Source: Pantoea sp. 1.19
GTDB taxonomy: Bacteria; Pseudomonadota; Gammaproteobacteria; Enterobacterales; Enterobacteriaceae
Length of the DNA: 64,000 bases
Reading direction: 5' to 3'
NCBI RefSeq assembly: GCF_001922585.1
Contig: NZ_MRBS01000009.1
Location: 62,001 to 126,000, forward strand
Of this stretch, positions 28,600 to 54,579 are shown piece by piece. Both the position numbers and the translations under genes were made by a program. Every line of letters begins with the position of its first letter. Position 1 is the stretch's first letter. A model generated the notes under the pieces. That model saw only the letters and a program-made list of their open reading frames with translations, was not told the origin of the DNA and did no database searches.

Positions 28600-29415
28600 T
28601 CAGACGTCGAGCACATACTTCTCAATCGCCAGCGCCGCGCCGTCTTCGCGGTTGCTGGCGGTATGGTACGGCGTTATTGCCTTCACGCTGTCAACCGCAT
28701 TGCCCATCGCCACGCCAATACCGGCAAACGCGATCATCGCCAGATCGTTTTCCTGATCGCCCAGCGTCATCACCCGATCGCGCGCCAGTCCCAGCCGCTC
28801 GGCCAGCAGACTGACCGCCGTACCTTTATTGACCCGCTTATCGAGAATTTCCAGATAGTACGGTGCACTTTTCATGATGGTGTATTCTCGCTTGAGCTCT
28901 GCCGGAATACGCGCTATCGCCGCATCCAGTTTTGCCGGCTCATCGATCATCATGACTTTAGGAAAGCGCATCGCCGGGTCCATCTCCGCCAGCGTACGGT
29001 AGCGGAGCGGGATGCCGGTGAGCGAGGACTCGTGAACGGTGTATTCGCTGATGTCTTTATTTGGGGTGTAAAGATGATCTTTATCCATGGCGTGAAAGTG
29101 CACGCCCAACGACTCTGCCAGCCGGTAGAAACGCACATACTCGTCCAGGCTGAGGGTCACTTCCGCCACGCACTCGCCGGTGTCGGCACGCTGAACCAGC
29201 GCACCATTATTGGTCACGCAGTACTGTCCCGGCTCGTTAAGGCCCAGTTCCGCAAGGTAATTTTTTACCCCGACGAAGGGCCGACCGGTGGCCAGCACCA
29301 CGGTCACGCCGCGCGCGCGCGCCGCCTGTATCGCCTGTTTTACCCGCGGAGTGATCTCATGCTGCGGGTTCAGCAGCGTGCCGTCCATATCGATTGCGAT
29401 CAGTTGAATTGCCAT
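28600..29415 (-). CDS. yidA: HAD-family sugar-phosphatase YidA
   Basis: 271 residues (E. coli YidA 270) from MAIQLIAIDMDGTLLNPQHE. The HAD nucleophile motif is IDMDGTLL, motif III/IV is LGDQENDLAMIAFAGIGVAM, and KRVNKGTAV contains the conserved Lys region; a Cof-type C2 cap lies between. These enzymes dephosphorylate sugar phosphates. In E. coli yidA sits by the gyrB operon; here the oxidant locus separates it from gyrB. Upstream in-frame ATGs are ignored because the family begins with MAI. Confidence 0.92.
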   Translation of the reverse strand: MAIQLIAIDMDGTLLNPQHEITPRVKQAIQAARARGVTVVLATGRPFVGVKNYLAELGLNEPGQYCVTNNGALVQRADTGECVAEVTLSLDEYVRFYRLAESLGVHFHAMDKDHLYTPNKDISEYTVHESSLTGIPLRYRTLAEMDPAMRFPKVMMIDEPAKLDAAIARIPAELKREYTIMKSAPYYLEILDKRVNKGTAVSLLAERLGLARDRVMTLGDQENDLAMIAFAGIGVAMGNAVDSVKAITPYHTASNREDGAALAIEKYVLDV

Positions 29416-29547
29416 AACGCCCTCATTGAGTCCTGTTTTCATCATGCTAGCGTGATTTCGCGCACATTTTCCAGCCTGATTGTACAGCATGCGTGCGCTT
29501 TCGCAGTATACCGCAGGAGGCGAGGGCTTCCTCCCGCGGTCGATAAC

Positions 29548-29919
29548 TCAGTGGCTCATGGCGTCTTTGCCCATCGCGTCTTTTTTCATCTCATCCTTGC
29601 CCATGGCGTCTTTTTTCATGCCGTCATGAGACTGGGCATCTTGGCTCATTGCATCTTTTTTCATGGCATCTTTGCTCATCGCGTCTTTCTTCATAGCATC
29701 TTTGTTCATGCCGTCATGGGACATCTGGCCCATTTCGTCCTTTTTCATGGCGTCTTTGCTCATGGCGTCTTTCTTCATAGCATCTTTGTTCATGCCGTCA
29801 TGGGACATCTGGCCCATTTCGTCCTTTTTCATGGCGTCTTTGCTCATGGCGTCAGCCGCCCAGGCACTGGACATCATCAATACAGAGGCAGTCATCACAG
29901 CAGAGATTAATTTTTTCAT
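29548..29919 (-). CDS. Secreted methionine-rich MXKDX-repeat protein (MrpX-like)
   Basis: 123 residues from the ATG at 29919, which has an AAGGA site 7 bases upstream (the ATG at 29925 is too close to it). A signal peptide (KKLISAVMTASVLMMSSAWA) is followed by a 102-residue mature chain built of five-residue units such as DAMKK, SKDAM and NKDAM. I count 20 Met in it (about 20%), no Cys, and high Lys/Asp, so it is probably disordered and periplasmic. The family is called 'pentapeptide MXKDX repeat protein'. It is the last gene of an operon with a molybdopterin oxidoreductase and a cytochrome b. By analogy with Azospira MrpX it could be a sacrificial oxidant sink; that role is inference. Confidence 0.88.
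   Translation of the reverse strand: MKKLISAVMTASVLMMSSAWAADAMSKDAMKKDEMGQMSHDGMNKDAMKKDAMSKDAMKKDEMGQMSHDGMNKDAMKKDAMSKDAMKKDAMSQDAQSHDGMKKDAMGKDEMKKDAMGKDAMSH
29677..29844 (-). repeat. 84-base tandem duplication inside the MXKDX gene
   Basis: Bases 29677-29760 and 29761-29844 are the same 84-base unit twice, differing at one base (29680 versus 29764). Each encodes 28 residues with the order SKDAM-KKDEM-GQM-SHDGM-NKDAM-KKDAM. The near identity shows recent expansion by recombination or slippage, and repeat number may vary between strains. Confidence 0.95.
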
Positions 29920-29973
29920 TGTCATTTCCTTATTGCATTGAGCGCACGCGCGGTGCGCGGGGGATTAACGACA

Positions 29974-30750
29974 TTAACTCCCGCCAAACCAGTTATAGCC
30001 CTGGTCTTCCCAGTAGCCACCGGGAAAGCGGTTAGTTACTTCGATAATCTGAATGTGTTTCGGGTTCTTATAGCCGAGCTTGGTGGGTATCCGCAGTTTC
30101 ATCGGATAGCCGTATTTCGGTGGCAGTGGCCCCCCGTTCCAGCTCAGGGTCAACTGCGTCTGCGGATGCAGCGCCGTCGCCATATCGATGCTGGTGAAGT
30201 AATCGTCCGCGCAGGTAAACTTAATGTATTTCGCGGATAAATCAGCGCCGACGTGCTGCAGAAACAGGGAAAACGGCACACCGCCCCATTTGCCAATCGC
30301 GCTCCACCCTTCAACGCAAATGTGCCGGGTGATCTGCTCGACCTGCGGTAAACGCTGCAGCTCTGTCAGCCGCCAGGGTTTTTTATCGCGCACCTGTCCG
30401 CCGACCTGTAGCCGATAGTCGTGGCCGTCAACGTGCGGAATATCCTCTTCGCCATAAAAGGCGTTAAACGGGAAATTCGGATCCACCTGCGCCTGGCTAT
30501 AAACCGGGGCTAAATCCTGTGGGTCAAACAGCCACTGCTGCACGCGATCGTTAAGACGCGAGAGGCGCCCCAGGGTTGCTTCCACATCGGGATGACTGCT
30601 GATATCACAACCGGTTAATAGCACCACGCCACCGAGCGTCAGCCCCTGACGTAAAAAACGGCGGCGCGACTCCCCCTGCAGTTTCCTGGCCAGCAGCTGC
30701 GTGGCCTCCTTCACCAGTGCCTTACCGTCAACATGGATTGGCTTCGTCAT
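29974..30750 (-). CDS. Tat-exported molybdopterin oxidoreductase (sulfite oxidase/MsrP fold)
   Basis: 258 residues. The molybdenum ligand is Cys145 in RHICVEGWSAIGKWGGVPF, as in the sulfite oxidase and MsrP (YedY) families; YGYPMKLRIPTKLGYKNPKH is the C-terminal cofactor-binding part. The N-terminal region has a twin-arginine motif at residues 29-31 (SRRRFLRQGLTLGG) followed by a hydrophobic stretch ending LLTGC, a lipobox-like Cys48. It is shorter than E. coli MsrP (334) and is not a typical msrP. The cytochrome b gene lies 10 bases upstream and the Met-rich protein gene 54 bases downstream, so it may reduce Met sulfoxide in that protein using quinol electrons. Substrate is inferred. Confidence 0.88.
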   Translation of the reverse strand: MTKPIHVDGKALVKEATQLLARKLQGESRRRFLRQGLTLGGVVLLTGCDISSHPDVEATLGRLSRLNDRVQQWLFDPQDLAPVYSQAQVDPNFPFNAFYGEEDIPHVDGHDYRLQVGGQVRDKKPWRLTELQRLPQVEQITRHICVEGWSAIGKWGGVPFSLFLQHVGADLSAKYIKFTCADDYFTSIDMATALHPQTQLTLSWNGGPLPPKYGYPMKLRIPTKLGYKNPKHIQIIEVTNRFPGGYWEDQGYNWFGGS

Positions 30751-30760
30751 TTTTCTCTCC

Positions 30761-31372
30761 TTAGCGCCCGCGCAGCATGGCCAGCAGGGTTTTCGGTACC
30801 AGCAACACCATCACCAGATGGATGAGCACAAAGGTGACCAGCGCGGCCATGCTGAAAAAGTGGACGTAACGTGCGGCCTCATAGCCGCCCATCAGGGTGC
30901 GCAGCAGTGGAAACTGTACTGATTTCCATAACACCAGCCCGGACACGACCAGTAACACGCTATCCACCATGACAAACAGGTAGGCCGCCTTTTGCACCGC
31001 GTTATACTGGCGAAGATCGCCGTGTGACAGGCGTCCGCGGATCGCGGCAGCCAGGTCCCGCCAGATTGCCAGCGGACTGAGGGGGAAAAACCGATGGCGC
31101 AAGCGGCCAGTAACCAGGTTTAGCAGCAGGTAACACAGACCATTGATGCCGACGATCCACATTGCCGCAAAGTGCCACTGTAAGGCTCCCCCCAGCCAGC
31201 CGCCCAGCGTCAAACCGTGGGTAAAGTGGAAATCAAACAGCGGTGAGGCGTTGTAAATTCGCCAGCCGCTGGTGACCATTACCAGCACCGCCAGCGCGTT
31301 GATCCAGTGGCAAAGGCGCAGCCACAGGGGGTGTATAGCGATTTTCGTCGAGGAAACTGTCTTTGCTGTCAT
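30761..31372 (-). CDS. Cytochrome b561-type membrane subunit
   Basis: 203 residues from the ATG at 31372; in-frame starts at 31393 and 31417 are possible, and none has a strong ribosome-binding site. Four hydrophobic spans carry candidate haem His residues: HPLWLRLCHWINALAVLVMV (His22), HFAAMWIVGINGLCYLLLNL and RYVHFFSMAALVTFVLIHLV. This is the cytochrome b/b6 (b561, hydrogenase-type) fold, which passes quinol electrons to a periplasmic partner. The partner is almost certainly the molybdopterin protein encoded 10 bases downstream, a pairing like MsrQ-MsrP but with an unrelated type of membrane subunit. Confidence 0.87.
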   Translation of the reverse strand: MTAKTVSSTKIAIHPLWLRLCHWINALAVLVMVTSGWRIYNASPLFDFHFTHGLTLGGWLGGALQWHFAAMWIVGINGLCYLLLNLVTGRLRHRFFPLSPLAIWRDLAAAIRGRLSHGDLRQYNAVQKAAYLFVMVDSVLLVVSGLVLWKSVQFPLLRTLMGGYEAARYVHFFSMAALVTFVLIHLVMVLLVPKTLLAMLRGR

Positions 31373-31435
31373 GTTGCCGCCCCGGTCATCCATCCTGTCG
31401 ATACGAGCAGTCTGCACCGCTGGGGCTCATCAAAT

Positions 31436-31464
31436 CCTCACGCAAAGTTAACTTAAATGTGATC
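31436..31464. promoter_or_regulatory. Candidate response-regulator site in the divergent promoter
   Basis: A 29-base block framed by inverted TCAC and GTGA, with a central palindrome AAGTTAACTT (31445-31454), lies midway between the divergent operons. The block recurs at 53216-53244 upstream of a DUF1471 gene with 22 of 29 bases identical, including CCTCACGCAA, TTAAC and GTGATC. The most likely binder is the adjacent OmpR-type regulator, which usually autoregulates; this is inference. Confidence 0.6.
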
Positions 31465-31519
31465 ACTTCCGGCGGCGACTTTCGCTACTATCAAACTAAT
31501 CTTGGTAGGGGATATGCCG

Positions 31520-32239
31520 ATGGAAAACGCCCGTAATCTTCTGGTCGTGGAAGACGATTGCCACATAGCAGAACTGCTGCAGCTGCATTTACAGGACGAG
31601 GGGTTCAGGGTCACCCACGCCGCCGACGGGGAGCGGGGGATGGCGCTGCTGGAGCAGGGAGGCTGGGATGCGCTGATCCTCGACTTGATGCTGCCCGGTA
31701 TTGATGGCCTGGAAATCTGTCGCCGCGCGCGCAACATGACCCGCTATACGCCGATCATCATGATTAGCGCACGCAGTAGCGAGGTGCACCGCGTACTCGG
31801 CCTCGAGCTGGGGGCCGATGATTATCTGGCCAAGCCGTTTTCGATGCTGGAGCTGGTGGCGCGGGTCAAGGCGCTGTTCCGTCGCCAGGAGGCGATGGGT
31901 AAAAATTTACGTCTCGACGCCGGATTGCTCACCCTCGGAGAGCTGCAGATTGATCCCATCGCGCGTGAAGTACGCCTGAGTCAACAGAGCGTGGATCTGA
32001 CGCCGCGCGAATTTGATTTGCTGTTTCACTTCGCCCGTCATCCGGGCAAAGTGTTTTCCCGCCTGCAGCTGTTGGATCTGGTCTGGGGCTATCAGCACGA
32101 TGGCTATGAACACACGGTGAATACCCACATTAATCGCCTGCGGGTAAAAATTGAACGCGACCCGGCCGCGCCGGAGCGCATCCTGACCGTGTGGGGCAAA
32201 GGCTATAAATTCGTATTACCTGGAGAACATTCCGCATGA
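31520..32239 (+). CDS. OmpR-family response regulator
   Basis: 239 residues from the ATG at 31520, which has AGGGG 8 bases upstream (TTG 31502 and ATG 31514 are alternatives). The receiver domain has the acidic pair VVEDD, phospho-acceptor Asp55 in LILDLMLPG and the switch Lys in YLAKPFSML. The C-terminal winged helix includes DLTPREFDLLFHFARHPGKV and YEHTVNTHINRLRVKIE. It is divergent from the cytochrome/molybdopterin/Met-rich operon and overlaps the kinase gene by ATGA, so it is the likely controller of that operon, comparable in role to E. coli HprR (YedW), which controls msrPQ. Confidence 0.93.
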   Translation: MENARNLLVVEDDCHIAELLQLHLQDEGFRVTHAADGERGMALLEQGGWDALILDLMLPGIDGLEICRRARNMTRYTPIIMISARSSEVHRVLGLELGADDYLAKPFSMLELVARVKALFRRQEAMGKNLRLDAGLLTLGELQIDPIAREVRLSQQSVDLTPREFDLLFHFARHPGKVFSRLQLLDLVWGYQHDGYEHTVNTHINRLRVKIERDPAAPERILTVWGKGYKFVLPGEHSA

Positions 32240-33699
32240 GATCGCTGTCGCTGTCGCACAAGCTGGCGCTGAGTTTTACGCTGCTCATGGTGATCGGCTG
32301 TGCGGTTTCAGTCTGGCTACAAATGCACACCAGCAAAAATTACAGTCGCGCCACCATTCAGCAGCTGTCCGTCGGGCTGGCCAGCCACATCGCCGGGGCG
32401 ATTCCACTGATGCGCTCACAGGGCCTTGATCAGCAGGCGTTAAAGGCGCTGTTTGATCAGACGATGACGGTCAACCCCAGCGTTGAAGTCTACCTGCTGG
32501 ATAACCAGGGTAGGATCGTGGCCGATGCCGCCCCCCCGGGCCGTATCAAGCGTCATCAGGTCTCTCTGGCCCCGCTGCTGGCGATGCAGCAGGGTGCTGA
32601 GCTGCCAATCCTCGGCGACGACCCGCGCAGTATGGAGGGAAAAAAAGTGTTTAGCGCGGCGCCACTGGTGCGAAACAACCGGCAGCAGGGCTGGTTATAC
32701 GTGATCCTGCTGGGCGAGGACTATCAATTTTTAGCCGACAACGCCCAGCGCAGCGCGCTGCTGTTTTACTCCCTGTCTTCAATGGGAGTGTTATTACTGC
32801 TGACCCTGACCATCGGCATCGTGATTTTTCGCTGGGTAACGCGCCCGATGCGCCAGCTTATCCATCAGGTCAGCCAGCTGGATAAAGGTGGGATGGTGGC
32901 GATCAAGGCGCTGGCGGAGCAGGACGTACCGGTAGCCACGCCAAATGAAGTAAGCCAGCTGCAGCACGCGTTTATCGGCCTCAGCCGCCGTATCACCCGG
33001 CAGTGGGAACAGCTGGCCGGCCAGGATCAGCAGCGCCGCGAATTTATCGCCAACATCTCCCACGATCTGCGTACGCCGCTGACTTCGCTGCACGGCTATC
33101 TGGAGACCCTGTCATTTAAGGCTGACAGCCTGACCGCCGTCGAACGTCAGCGCTATCTGGCCATCGCGCTGGCGCAGAGTCAGAAAGTGGGCGTAATGGC
33201 GCAGCAGCTGTTTGAGCTGGCGCGGCTGGAGCACGGCGGTGTCCGCCTGCGCAAAGAGCGTTTCTCTCTCAGCGAGCTGGCGCAGGACGTCTGGCAAAAG
33301 TGCGAACTCAGCGCCGAACGCCGGCAGATTCAGCTGCAGCCGGAGATCGAACCGCGGCTGCCGCTGGTCTATGCCGATCTGTCGATGATTGAACGGGTGC
33401 TGACCAACCTGCTGGATAACGCCATCCGCCACTCACCGCCGGGCGGGAGCGTACGGCTGAGCATTCAGCAGCAAAGCCAGGGGCTGCGGGTGGAGCTGGC
33501 GGATGAGGGGCCCGGCGTGGCCGATGAACTGAAAGCAACGCTGTTTCATCGCCCATCGGTGCTGAATCACAATCAGCGCCAGCACGGCGGGCTGGGATTG
33601 ATGATCGTACACCGCATGCTGCAGCTGCATCATAGTGAGATCCAGCTGGTGGAGACACCCACCGGCGCCTGCTTCCGCTTTGTACTGCCGCTGGAGTAA
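32236..33699 (+). CDS. Sensor histidine kinase
   Basis: 487 residues. One N-terminal membrane span (LALSFTLLMVIGCAVSVWL), a periplasmic sensor domain of roughly 140 residues without Cys, a second span (LLFYSLSSMGVLLLLTLTIG), then HAMP, the HisKA phospho-acceptor His276 in FIANISHDLRTPLTSLHGYL, and an ATPase domain with NLLDNAIRHSPPGGS and GPGVADE. It pairs with the preceding response regulator (4-base overlap). The signal is unknown; an oxidant such as hypochlorite is suggested only by the target operon. Confidence 0.93.
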   Translation: MRSLSLSHKLALSFTLLMVIGCAVSVWLQMHTSKNYSRATIQQLSVGLASHIAGAIPLMRSQGLDQQALKALFDQTMTVNPSVEVYLLDNQGRIVADAAPPGRIKRHQVSLAPLLAMQQGAELPILGDDPRSMEGKKVFSAAPLVRNNRQQGWLYVILLGEDYQFLADNAQRSALLFYSLSSMGVLLLLTLTIGIVIFRWVTRPMRQLIHQVSQLDKGGMVAIKALAEQDVPVATPNEVSQLQHAFIGLSRRITRQWEQLAGQDQQRREFIANISHDLRTPLTSLHGYLETLSFKADSLTAVERQRYLAIALAQSQKVGVMAQQLFELARLEHGGVRLRKERFSLSELAQDVWQKCELSAERRQIQLQPEIEPRLPLVYADLSMIERVLTNLLDNAIRHSPPGGSVRLSIQQQSQGLRVELADEGPGVADELKATLFHRPSVLNHNQRQHGGLGLMIVHRMLQLHHSEIQLVETPTGACFRFVLPLE

Positions 33700-53215: not shown

Positions 53216-53244
53216 CCTCACGCAAGCTTAACATTTTCGTGATC
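53216..53244. promoter_or_regulatory. Second copy of the candidate response-regulator site
   Basis: Same 29-base layout as 31436-31464: CCTCACGCAA, then TTAAC, then GTGATC, 22 of 29 bases identical, with TCAC and GTGA at the same distance. It lies upstream of the DUF1471 gene (start 53123) and after the stop of the permease gene, so it can only serve the DUF1471 promoter. Confidence 0.6.
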
Positions 53245-53265: not shown

Positions 53266-54579
53266 TCAGTGGCCGTCAACAAACACAATCTTGAGCACAA
53301 ACAGCAGGGCCACGACGACTAAGCACGGGCTGATTTCCCGCCAGCGGCCGGTGCCCAGCTTCATCACGCAGTAGGAGATAAAGCCCAGGGCGATCCCCTC
53401 GGTGATGGAGAAGCTGAACGGCATCATGGCAGCGGTAACGAATGCCGGCACCGCTTCGGTAAGATCATCCCACTTGACGCGCGACAGGCTGGACGTCATC
53501 AGCACGCCCACGTAGATCAGGGCGCCGGCCGCCGCGTAGGTCGGCACGATGCCCGCCAGCGGTGACAGAAACATCACCAACAGGAACAGCAGGCCGGTAA
53601 CTACCGCCATCAGGCCGGTGCGGCCACCGACGGAGACTCCGGAGGAGCTTTCAATGTAGGCGGTGACGGAAGAGGTGCCGATAAAGGAACCGGCCACCGA
53701 GCTCACGCTGTCCACATACAGTGCCTGTTTCATCCGCGGAAATTTACCGTTCTCATCGGCCAGTCCGGCCTTGTCAGTCACGCCAATCAGCGTGCCGGAG
53801 GAGTCAAACAAGTTAACCAGCATAAAAGAGAAAATAATCCCGGCCATGCCGATATTCAGCGCGCCGGCTAAGTCCACCTGGCCCACTACGCTACCGATCC
53901 CGGTCGGCATCGAGAATACGCCGTTAAACGTCACGTCGCCCAGCGCCATGCCAATCAGCGTGGTCACCACAATCGACACCAGCACCGCAATGTGGATATT
54001 ACGCGAAGCGAGGATGGCGATAATAAAAAAGCCCAGCGCACCCAACAGCACGCTGTGTGAGGTCAGATCGCCAACCATCACCAGGGTGTCTTTATTCGCA
54101 ACGATGATACCGGCATTTTTAAGGCCGATCAGCGCAATCAGCAGGCCAATTCCGGCGGAGATCCCGACCCGCAGGCTGAGCGGAATATTGGCAATCATCC
54201 AGTAGCGAACGCGGAACAGGGTCAACAGCAGCAGCCCCACCGCCCCCCAAAAGATCGCGCCCATGCCGACCTGCCAGGAGACGCCCATCGCGCCCACGAC
54301 CACAAAGGCGAAAAAGGCATTCAGCCCCATCGCTGGCGCCAGCGCCACCGGCAGGTTGGCCACCAGCCCCATTAAAATACTGCCGAAGGCAGCAATCAGA
54401 CAGGTGGTGACAAACACCGCCCGGGTATCCATGCCGGCGACGCCGAGGATCTGCGGGTTAACAAAGACGATATACACCATGGTCAGGAAGGTCGTAATTC
54501 CGGCGATCACTTCGGTACGCACCGTCGTACCGTGCTCCTGCAATTTGAACACGCGCTGCAATAAACCCGGATGAGTCAT
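53266..54579 (-). CDS. adeP: Adenine permease (NCS2/AzgA-like)
   Basis: 437 residues with about 12-14 membrane spans. VIAGITTFLTMVYIVFVNPQ, LAPAMGLNAFFAFVVVG and SSVTAYIESSSGVSVGGRTG are the substrate and proton-site motifs of the AzgA-like NCS2 branch. The protein resembles E. coli AdeP (YieG, 445), a proton-linked adenine importer, and the neighbouring yieE supports that. Guanine/hypoxanthine paralogues (GhxP/GhxQ) are similar, so the base specificity is probable, not certain. Confidence 0.85.
   Translation of the reverse strand: MTHPGLLQRVFKLQEHGTTVRTEVIAGITTFLTMVYIVFVNPQILGVAGMDTRAVFVTTCLIAAFGSILMGLVANLPVALAPAMGLNAFFAFVVVGAMGVSWQVGMGAIFWGAVGLLLLTLFRVRYWMIANIPLSLRVGISAGIGLLIALIGLKNAGIIVANKDTLVMVGDLTSHSVLLGALGFFIIAILASRNIHIAVLVSIVVTTLIGMALGDVTFNGVFSMPTGIGSVVGQVDLAGALNIGMAGIIFSFMLVNLFDSSGTLIGVTDKAGLADENGKFPRMKQALYVDSVSSVAGSFIGTSSVTAYIESSSGVSVGGRTGLMAVVTGLLFLLVMFLSPLAGIVPTYAAAGALIYVGVLMTSSLSRVKWDDLTEAVPAFVTAAMMPFSFSITEGIALGFISYCVMKLGTGRWREISPCLVVVALLFVLKIVFVDGH

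Follow-up and report, generated by a model that had tools for sequence, protein, structure and literature searches.

In uropathogenic Escherichia coli (UPEC), the two-component genes orhK and orhR adjoin c3566 (encoding a cytochrome b), c3567 (an MsrP-like protein) and c3568 (a Met-rich protein likened to MrpX), as set out in the available text of a 2021 report (PMC8550376). According to the same text, c3566-c3568 form an operon whose promoter is bound by OrhR and contains TCACA-N15-TGTGA. The inducers are tert-butyl hydroperoxide and macrophage H2O2, and loss of the kinase, regulator, cytochrome or molybdenum (Mo) protein by mutation raises sensitivity to tert-butyl hydroperoxide. Here we compare with this system a five-gene locus of Pantoea sp. 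1.19, lying at positions 29548-33699 of a 64,000-nucleotide stretch (contig NZ_MRBS01000009.1, positions 62,001 to 126,000 of the forward strand; hereafter the window), and report that a repeat of the proposed OrhR-site form is shared across regulator-operon gaps and also marks other methionine-repair genes.

Further systems resemble the locus in part, as far as the accessible portions of their descriptions go. The Azospira suillum SigF/NrsF-MrpX-YedY1/YedZ1 system (Melnyk 2015, via PMC5748585, PMC4623255) likewise joins a Met-rich peptide to a YedY-type enzyme and a membrane partner, but is controlled by an extracytoplasmic function (ECF) sigma/anti-sigma pair where the window has a two-component system. 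The Brucella melitensis BcrS/AbcS-BcrXQP system (PMC8315932) combines an MXKDX protein with an MsrQP-like pair and is induced by HOCl, differing in its ECF control. In E. coli, HprRS exerts two-component control over a periplasmic Mo-dependent Met sulfoxide reductase, MsrPQ (PMC10151825). Identity with HprRS/MsrPQ was rejected on curated cut-offs: the window regulator scores 146.6 bits where HprR requires 353, and the Mo protein 75 bits where the MsrP equivalog requires 207. The cytochrome carries PF01292 rather than the PF01794 of MsrQ. To our knowledge, the HprRS-MsrPQ operon of E. coli has no Met-rich gene.

A five-gene locus of the OrhKR type

All five genes of the Pantoea locus were found as intact open reading frames (ORFs). 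On the minus strand lie a b561-type membrane cytochrome b (30761-31372; PF01292, 84 bits), the presumed quinol-to-Mo-protein electron donor; an MsrP-fold (sulfite-oxidase family) molybdopterin oxidoreductase with a twin-arginine translocation (Tat) signal and lipobox (29974-30750; PF00174, 105 bits); and a Met-rich MXKDX pentapeptide-repeat protein, presumed to be exported by the general secretory (Sec) route and proposed as a sacrificial methionine sink (29548-29925). Divergent from these, on the plus strand, are an OrhR-like response regulator of the OmpR/PhoB family (31502-32239; PF00072 and PF00486) and an OrhK-like sensor histidine kinase (32236-33699) with two presumed transmembrane helices, a PAS/Cache-like periplasmic domain, and HAMP, HisKA and HATPase domains (PF00672, PF00512 and PF02518). 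The shared promoter region, put at about 150 bases by an earlier model-made reading of the letters (the first-pass annotation), measures 129-147 bp depending on the regulator start, which is probably ATG 31520 (or 31514) and not TTG 31502; it holds a 25-bp inverted repeat at 31438-31462.

The UPEC strain CFT073 was represented by strain F11 (urine-isolate chromosome, L085), an equivalence that we infer from gene content, order and repeat. Both F11 and an E. coli plasmid copy (L004) carry the five gene types in the order seen in the window, and F11 shares the divergent orientation of the regulator-kinase pair. Identities between F11 and the window are 62% for the Mo protein, 59% for the cytochrome, 66% for the regulator and 50% for the kinase, and the F11 cytochrome and Mo protein match the same models as those of the window. 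Across related loci the regulator is 66-86% identical to its counterparts (69% to the E. coli plasmid copy), against 40-42% for the next-best regulator within the window's genome; with the F11 and plasmid copies standing in for CFT073, it behaves as an OrhR orthologue. The setting differs: the window unit has yidA and gyrB as its neighbours, where the UPEC genes occupy a pathogenicity island next to hlyCABD (hlyCABD downstream of the operon, a co-transcription trait of UPEC that does not define the system, is absent here), and the MXKDX protein of the window is longer and free of Cys. Judged from its sequence, the operon is real and functional-looking, and it adds a further member to the OrhKR system already in print. 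The first-pass annotation had regarded a two-component version in an enterobacterium as a new variant. That claim falls, because UPEC had already been reported (PMC8550376) to carry these gene types in this order; its reading of the locus as one unit of MsrP-fold enzyme and Met-rich partner, with its own switch and wide co-occurrence, is supported. Among the matches listed for the names orhK and orhR in one open literature collection, the relevant ones were PMC8550376 and a review citing it.

Co-occurrence of the five genes, proposed earlier as a test of the unit, was surveyed in 82 related loci: the best 80 of at least 594 confirmed stretches (597 candidates) from a scan of genome contigs, plus the two E. 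coli copies (L004 and L085). This is not a random sample, and fractions over it hold for close relatives; the best 80 come from Enterobacterales, Burkholderiales, Pseudomonas and other taxa. The cytochrome gene adjoins the Mo gene, at similar spacing, in 82/82, an MXKDX ORF is present in 79/82, and a divergent regulator in 38/82. Two of the three loci lacking the MXKDX ORF (L024, L042) end 56 and 292 bases past the Mo gene. By regulator type (an OrhR-like call requires a score >250 bits no more than 4.2 kb from the core; typing was checked with Pfam on example loci), 38 loci are OrhR-like, 14 have an ECF sigma factor or NrsF and 30 have neither. The two types never coincide: a 4.2-kb search around the core detected no ECF/NrsF gene at any of the 38 loci with the regulator.

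The 25-bp repeat and its distribution

The form TCAC-N17-GTGA, with a consensus near TCACATTTWATTTAACTTTGCGTGA, occurs in 39/40 regulator-operon gaps (the window and L058 included). Together with the divergent regulator-kinase pair kept in 38/82 loci, this supports the earlier suggestion of a dedicated two-component switch. Read on the minus strand, the window copy is TCACATTTAAGTTAACTTTGCGTGA; on the plus strand it reads TCACG-N15-TGTGA, keeping the outer TCAC and GTGA with one arm off at the fifth letter and fitting the family consensus, and the F11 gap has exactly TCACA-N15-TGTGA, the form given in the available text of PMC8550376. Of 20000 mononucleotide-shuffled versions of the window gap, 28 held the bare pattern, which is weakly specific, with five matches in the 64-kb window. 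A fuller consensus, drawn partly from the window's own site, gave at three or fewer mismatches a single match in the 3.79-Mb genome, at 31438-31462 (reversed control 0), and a looser consensus at two mismatches again gave only this site, which we presume to be an OrhR-type operator. A weaker look-alike at 53218-53242 (three mismatches to the looser consensus), just past the 3' end of a permease-like ORF (437 aa, ending at 53266), was not accepted as an operator site and is probably due to chance.

The repeat is also found where the regulator is not beside the core. Among 43 such loci, 20 carry a bare TCAC-N17-GTGA match; in L039 it falls inside the cytochrome gene, and in the other 19 it stands shortly before the cytochrome (18 Pseudomonas, at 56-75 bp, and one Citrobacter). 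No bare match was present at the 14 ECF loci. A regulator search in 15 of the 43 genomes, at a cut-off of E 1e-60, returned a relative in 11, ten of them 68-77% and one 56% identical; those at 68-77% are taken as orthologues because the next best regulator in the window's genome reaches only 40-42%. In the seven Pseudomonas genomes searched, the unlinked regulator is 72-74% identical, and in 7/7 the regulator-kinase pair is transcribed away from msrB and msrA, the operator lying in the intervening gap. A DsbD-like gene lies between msrB and msrA in 5/7, and one such set, compared with curated models, comprises an MsrB with a Tat signal and an MsrA. The same regulator-kinase/msr set occurs in a Caballeronia genome (L106), and in Citrobacter (L104) the pair is transcribed away from canonical msrPQ, the operator once more lying between them.

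A consensus scan at two mismatches across 11 genomes gave 19 sites, 18 of them at a core or a regulator/msr locus (backward control 1), with exactly two sites in each of the seven Pseudomonas genomes and in Citrobacter, one at the core and one at the regulator/msr locus. As only core-bearing genomes were chosen and sites of this kind had supplied the consensus, matches at these loci were expected; the scarcity of sites elsewhere was not. Because operator and regulator are shared with msrB/msrA and with msrPQ, the system is tied to periplasmic methionine-sulfoxide repair. Methionine sulfoxide reductase genes also lie near cores directly. In four loci from Achromobacter and one each from Bordetella, Xenophilus and Pseudorhodoferax (L026, L031, L034, L035, L053, L058 and L074), the core is followed by both msrB and msrA; in L055 and two ECF loci, L046 and L072, msrA alone was detected after it. 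Overall, msrA lies within 4.2 kb of the core in 12/82 loci (upstream on the other strand in L047 and L052). Exported MsrA/MsrB beside mrpX/yedYZ are known from perchlorate islands, as given in the accessible part of PMC4623255.

These sequence comparisons indicate that the regulon is broader and better defined than we found in print; among the literature matches listed, from one open collection, no description of a wider OrhR regulon appeared. The window operon thus takes its place in a published system, and OrhKR would be recast from a strain-specific virulence regulator to a conserved periplasmic repair regulon whose defined operator predicts targets testable in harmless species and gives a handle on the kinase signal.

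A second cytochrome-Mo pair with its own operator was observed in Bordetella genomosp. 2 (L058:5339-6830); it lies some kilobases downstream of the first pair and the msrB-msrA genes belonging to that pair.

The Mo enzyme, cytochrome, repeat protein and kinase

The pairing of an MsrP-fold enzyme (PF00174) with a b561-type partner (PF01292) is as first described. The proposed Mo ligand, Cys145, is present in the motif HICVEGW and is the presumed ligand; Arg29, Arg30, Cys48 and Cys145 are unchanged in 40/40 aligned proteins. The Tat signal on which export was predicted is there, and the lipobox that accompanies it (LTGC-D) had been overlooked. A Tat-like motif and a lipobox were detected, by a slightly loosened pattern applied near the catalytic Cys, in 83/83 Mo-protein homologues, the window's included, and the residue at +2 after the lipobox Cys is Asp in 33 of the 83, again including that of the window. 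In E. coli, Asp at +2 directs retention of lipoproteins in the inner membrane. The combination of Tat signal, lipobox and Asp at +2 suggests that the Mo protein is probably a lipoprotein anchored in the inner membrane.

MsrP/YedY (1xdq) is the nearest solved relative of the Mo protein by sequence (E 1.1e-12), and 1xdq_A is also the top match in a predicted-fold search (E 9.3e-13, TM-score 0.51; mean predicted local distance difference test (pLDDT) score of the model 73.5); the SorA and SoxC models give 53 and 45 bits. In a tree of Mo proteins (quick method, with 38/80 inner branches open), the window groups with CwR94 (L005) at support 99, and regulator types are clustered yet have switched more than once. 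The partner cytochrome retains His22, His67, His117, His171 and His185 in 83/83 sequences, fitting a haem-bearing quinol oxidase that would pass electrons to an enzyme held adjacent to it.

The MXKDX protein (125 aa) scores 100 bits against TIGR02953 (cut-off 41), and two E. coli homologues fall just below that cut-off at 35 and 39 bits. With signal cleavage placed by eye after residue 23, 102 mature residues remain, holding 20 Met and no Cys, in agreement with the composition first noted. An 84-bp tandem repeat inside the gene (29633-29853; 2.6 copies, 94% matches) suggests that protein length may vary between strains. By analogy with the Azospira work (PMC5748585 and PMC4623255, in their available portions), the protein would absorb oxidant and be recharged. 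Exactly two Cys were counted in the presumed mature part of 26/80 MXKDX proteins (L004, L085 and L020 among them; e.g. MCKDxMCKD), protein starts being set by rule of thumb; this form may represent a variant sink that is metal- or disulfide-binding.

The periplasmic sensor of the kinase, modelled at moderate confidence (mean pLDDT 75.9), looks PAS/Cache-like, its fold search giving weak PAS/Cache matches, one of them below E 0.001. Within it, Met77 is unchanged in 41/41 aligned kinases, and no Cys of this domain is conserved. HprS is reported to sense via two periplasmic methionines (PMC10151825, available text), and the kinase may read methionine oxidation itself, via Met77; a structural role for this residue may equally account for its conservation.

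Proposed function, alternatives and genomic setting

Building on the observed anatomy, co-occurrence, operator conservation and linkage of operator and regulator to MsrB/MsrA and MsrPQ, we consider it likely that the unit is a periplasmic methionine-oxidation defence of the OrhKR type. On sensing periplasmic oxidants or oxidative damage, the kinase would phosphorylate the regulator, which would then bind the repeat at 31438-31462 and switch on the leftward operon. The cytochrome would draw electrons from the quinol pool and deliver them to the membrane-anchored MsrP-fold Mo enzyme; this enzyme would turn methionine sulfoxide back into methionine, both in periplasmic proteins and in the MXKDX protein expressed alongside it, the latter acting as a rechargeable sacrificial sink. 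In a wider proposal, which we hold in even balance, OrhKR is widespread across Enterobacterales, Burkholderiales and Pseudomonas as a regulator dedicated to methionine oxidation in the periplasm, and its single 25-bp operator drives, depending on lineage, three biochemically different reductase systems; these may be the lipoprotein Mo enzyme, fed by quinol and paired with an MXKDX sink, a thiol-driven exported MsrB-DsbD-like-MsrA set, and MsrPQ. The kinase may there sense Met oxidation, and the UPEC haemolysin link would be a late add-on.

Several results weigh against this defence or its regulon. The L028 gap holds a degenerate copy only, the intact repeat being absent; 4 of the 15 core-bearing genomes searched gave no regulator relative at E 1e-60; Caballeronia has one operator site, at its regulator/msr locus, and none at its core; and Edwardsiella (L112) keeps core and regulator with no operator at the core, no msr gene detected near the regulator, and its sole operator-like site in a stretch of short ORFs resembling insertion sequences. 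The window's genome also has a canonical msrPQ (G000:C39:135379-136386, L086), whose MsrP scores 503 bits and has, by eye, a signal without a lipobox; the genome-wide consensus scan found no operator match there, and since canonical msrPQ is already present, repair by the window unit would be partly redundant. The Mo protein stays below the MsrP equivalog cut-off, and we know of no substrate or activity for members of its subfamily. Finally, the SigF/NrsF regulon of Caulobacter, of which a YedY-type gene is part, answers chromium and cadmium and not the oxidants tested, in the available text of PMC3511200.

That metal response would also suit a metal-stress module, in which copper(I) or some other soft metal is bound in the periplasm by the Met-rich protein and sensed by the kinase, repair of metal-catalysed damage by the Mo enzyme being a side role only. 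The two-Cys MXKDX proteins point the same way, as does a weak likeness of the sensor model to the silver-bound CusS domain, one among many other PAS/Cache domains matched. We nonetheless regard a metal module as unlikely: the window MXKDX protein has no Cys, its regulator falls below the cut-offs of the copper and heavy-metal regulator models, the 11-genome operator sites lie with one exception at core or regulator/msr loci, and the UPEC operon is peroxide-induced (PMC8550376, in the available text). Equally improbable, in our estimate, is a respiratory or detoxifying role in which the Mo protein acts on some other small molecule (sulfite, a different S- or N-oxide, or an oxyanion of chlorine), with MXKDX protecting the enzyme and not serving as its substrate. 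The sulfite-oxidase family fold would allow this, the SorA and SoxC scores stand next to the 75 bits for MsrP, and the function of the Mo protein is read from its sequence; yet MsrP/YedY is the top match by both sequence and fold, and the recurrent linkage and common operator with MsrB/MsrA and MsrPQ argue for methionine repair. That chance alone has placed the two-component system next to the three-gene operon in the window is very hard to credit, even with 14/82 cores bearing ECF/NrsF instead and 30/82 having neither nearby: the divergent pair recurs, its gaps almost always hold the operator, and in the 18 Pseudomonas loci and one Citrobacter locus the operator stays at the operon though the regulator is not beside it.

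Within its own order the Mo protein is patchy, found at E 1e-60 or better in 7/295 sampled genomes (the window's own included), all seven in the family to which the window belongs. In E. coli, the cytochrome-Mo part occurs in 350/5426 genomes, and 75 of its 363 places are on plasmids; a longer query matched 890/5426 genomes, a figure set aside, as part of it may reflect paralogous regulators and kinases. The plasmid copy L004 is flanked by transposase remnants, and with the plasmid places this suggests that the unit may be mobile in E. coli. A core between gyrB and yidA was also found in CwR94, in Pantoea sp. SOD02 (L009) and in a contig labelled Enterobacter ludwigii (L010); given the common position, the core in this group looks like an old resident and not a fresh island.

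Downstream of the MXKDX gene in the window lie a yidA-like phosphatase gene and then, on the other strand, recG. A long plus-strand ORF across the MXKDX gene (28663-29910) was taken as its antisense shadow. A sigma-70 promoter scan of the region was uninformative (0 found against 1.9 expected in shuffles), and ten terminator-like sites were found against 4.4 expected, the best of which (33744-33724, minus strand) reads as that of gyrB. In Burkholderiales, an ECF sigma factor and NrsF replace the two-component system at L048, L056, L061, L063, L064, L069 and L084, and the MXKDX gene stands upstream of the cytochrome in six of these seven (all but L048). DUF1223 genes adjoin two of them, L061 and L084, and also L050.

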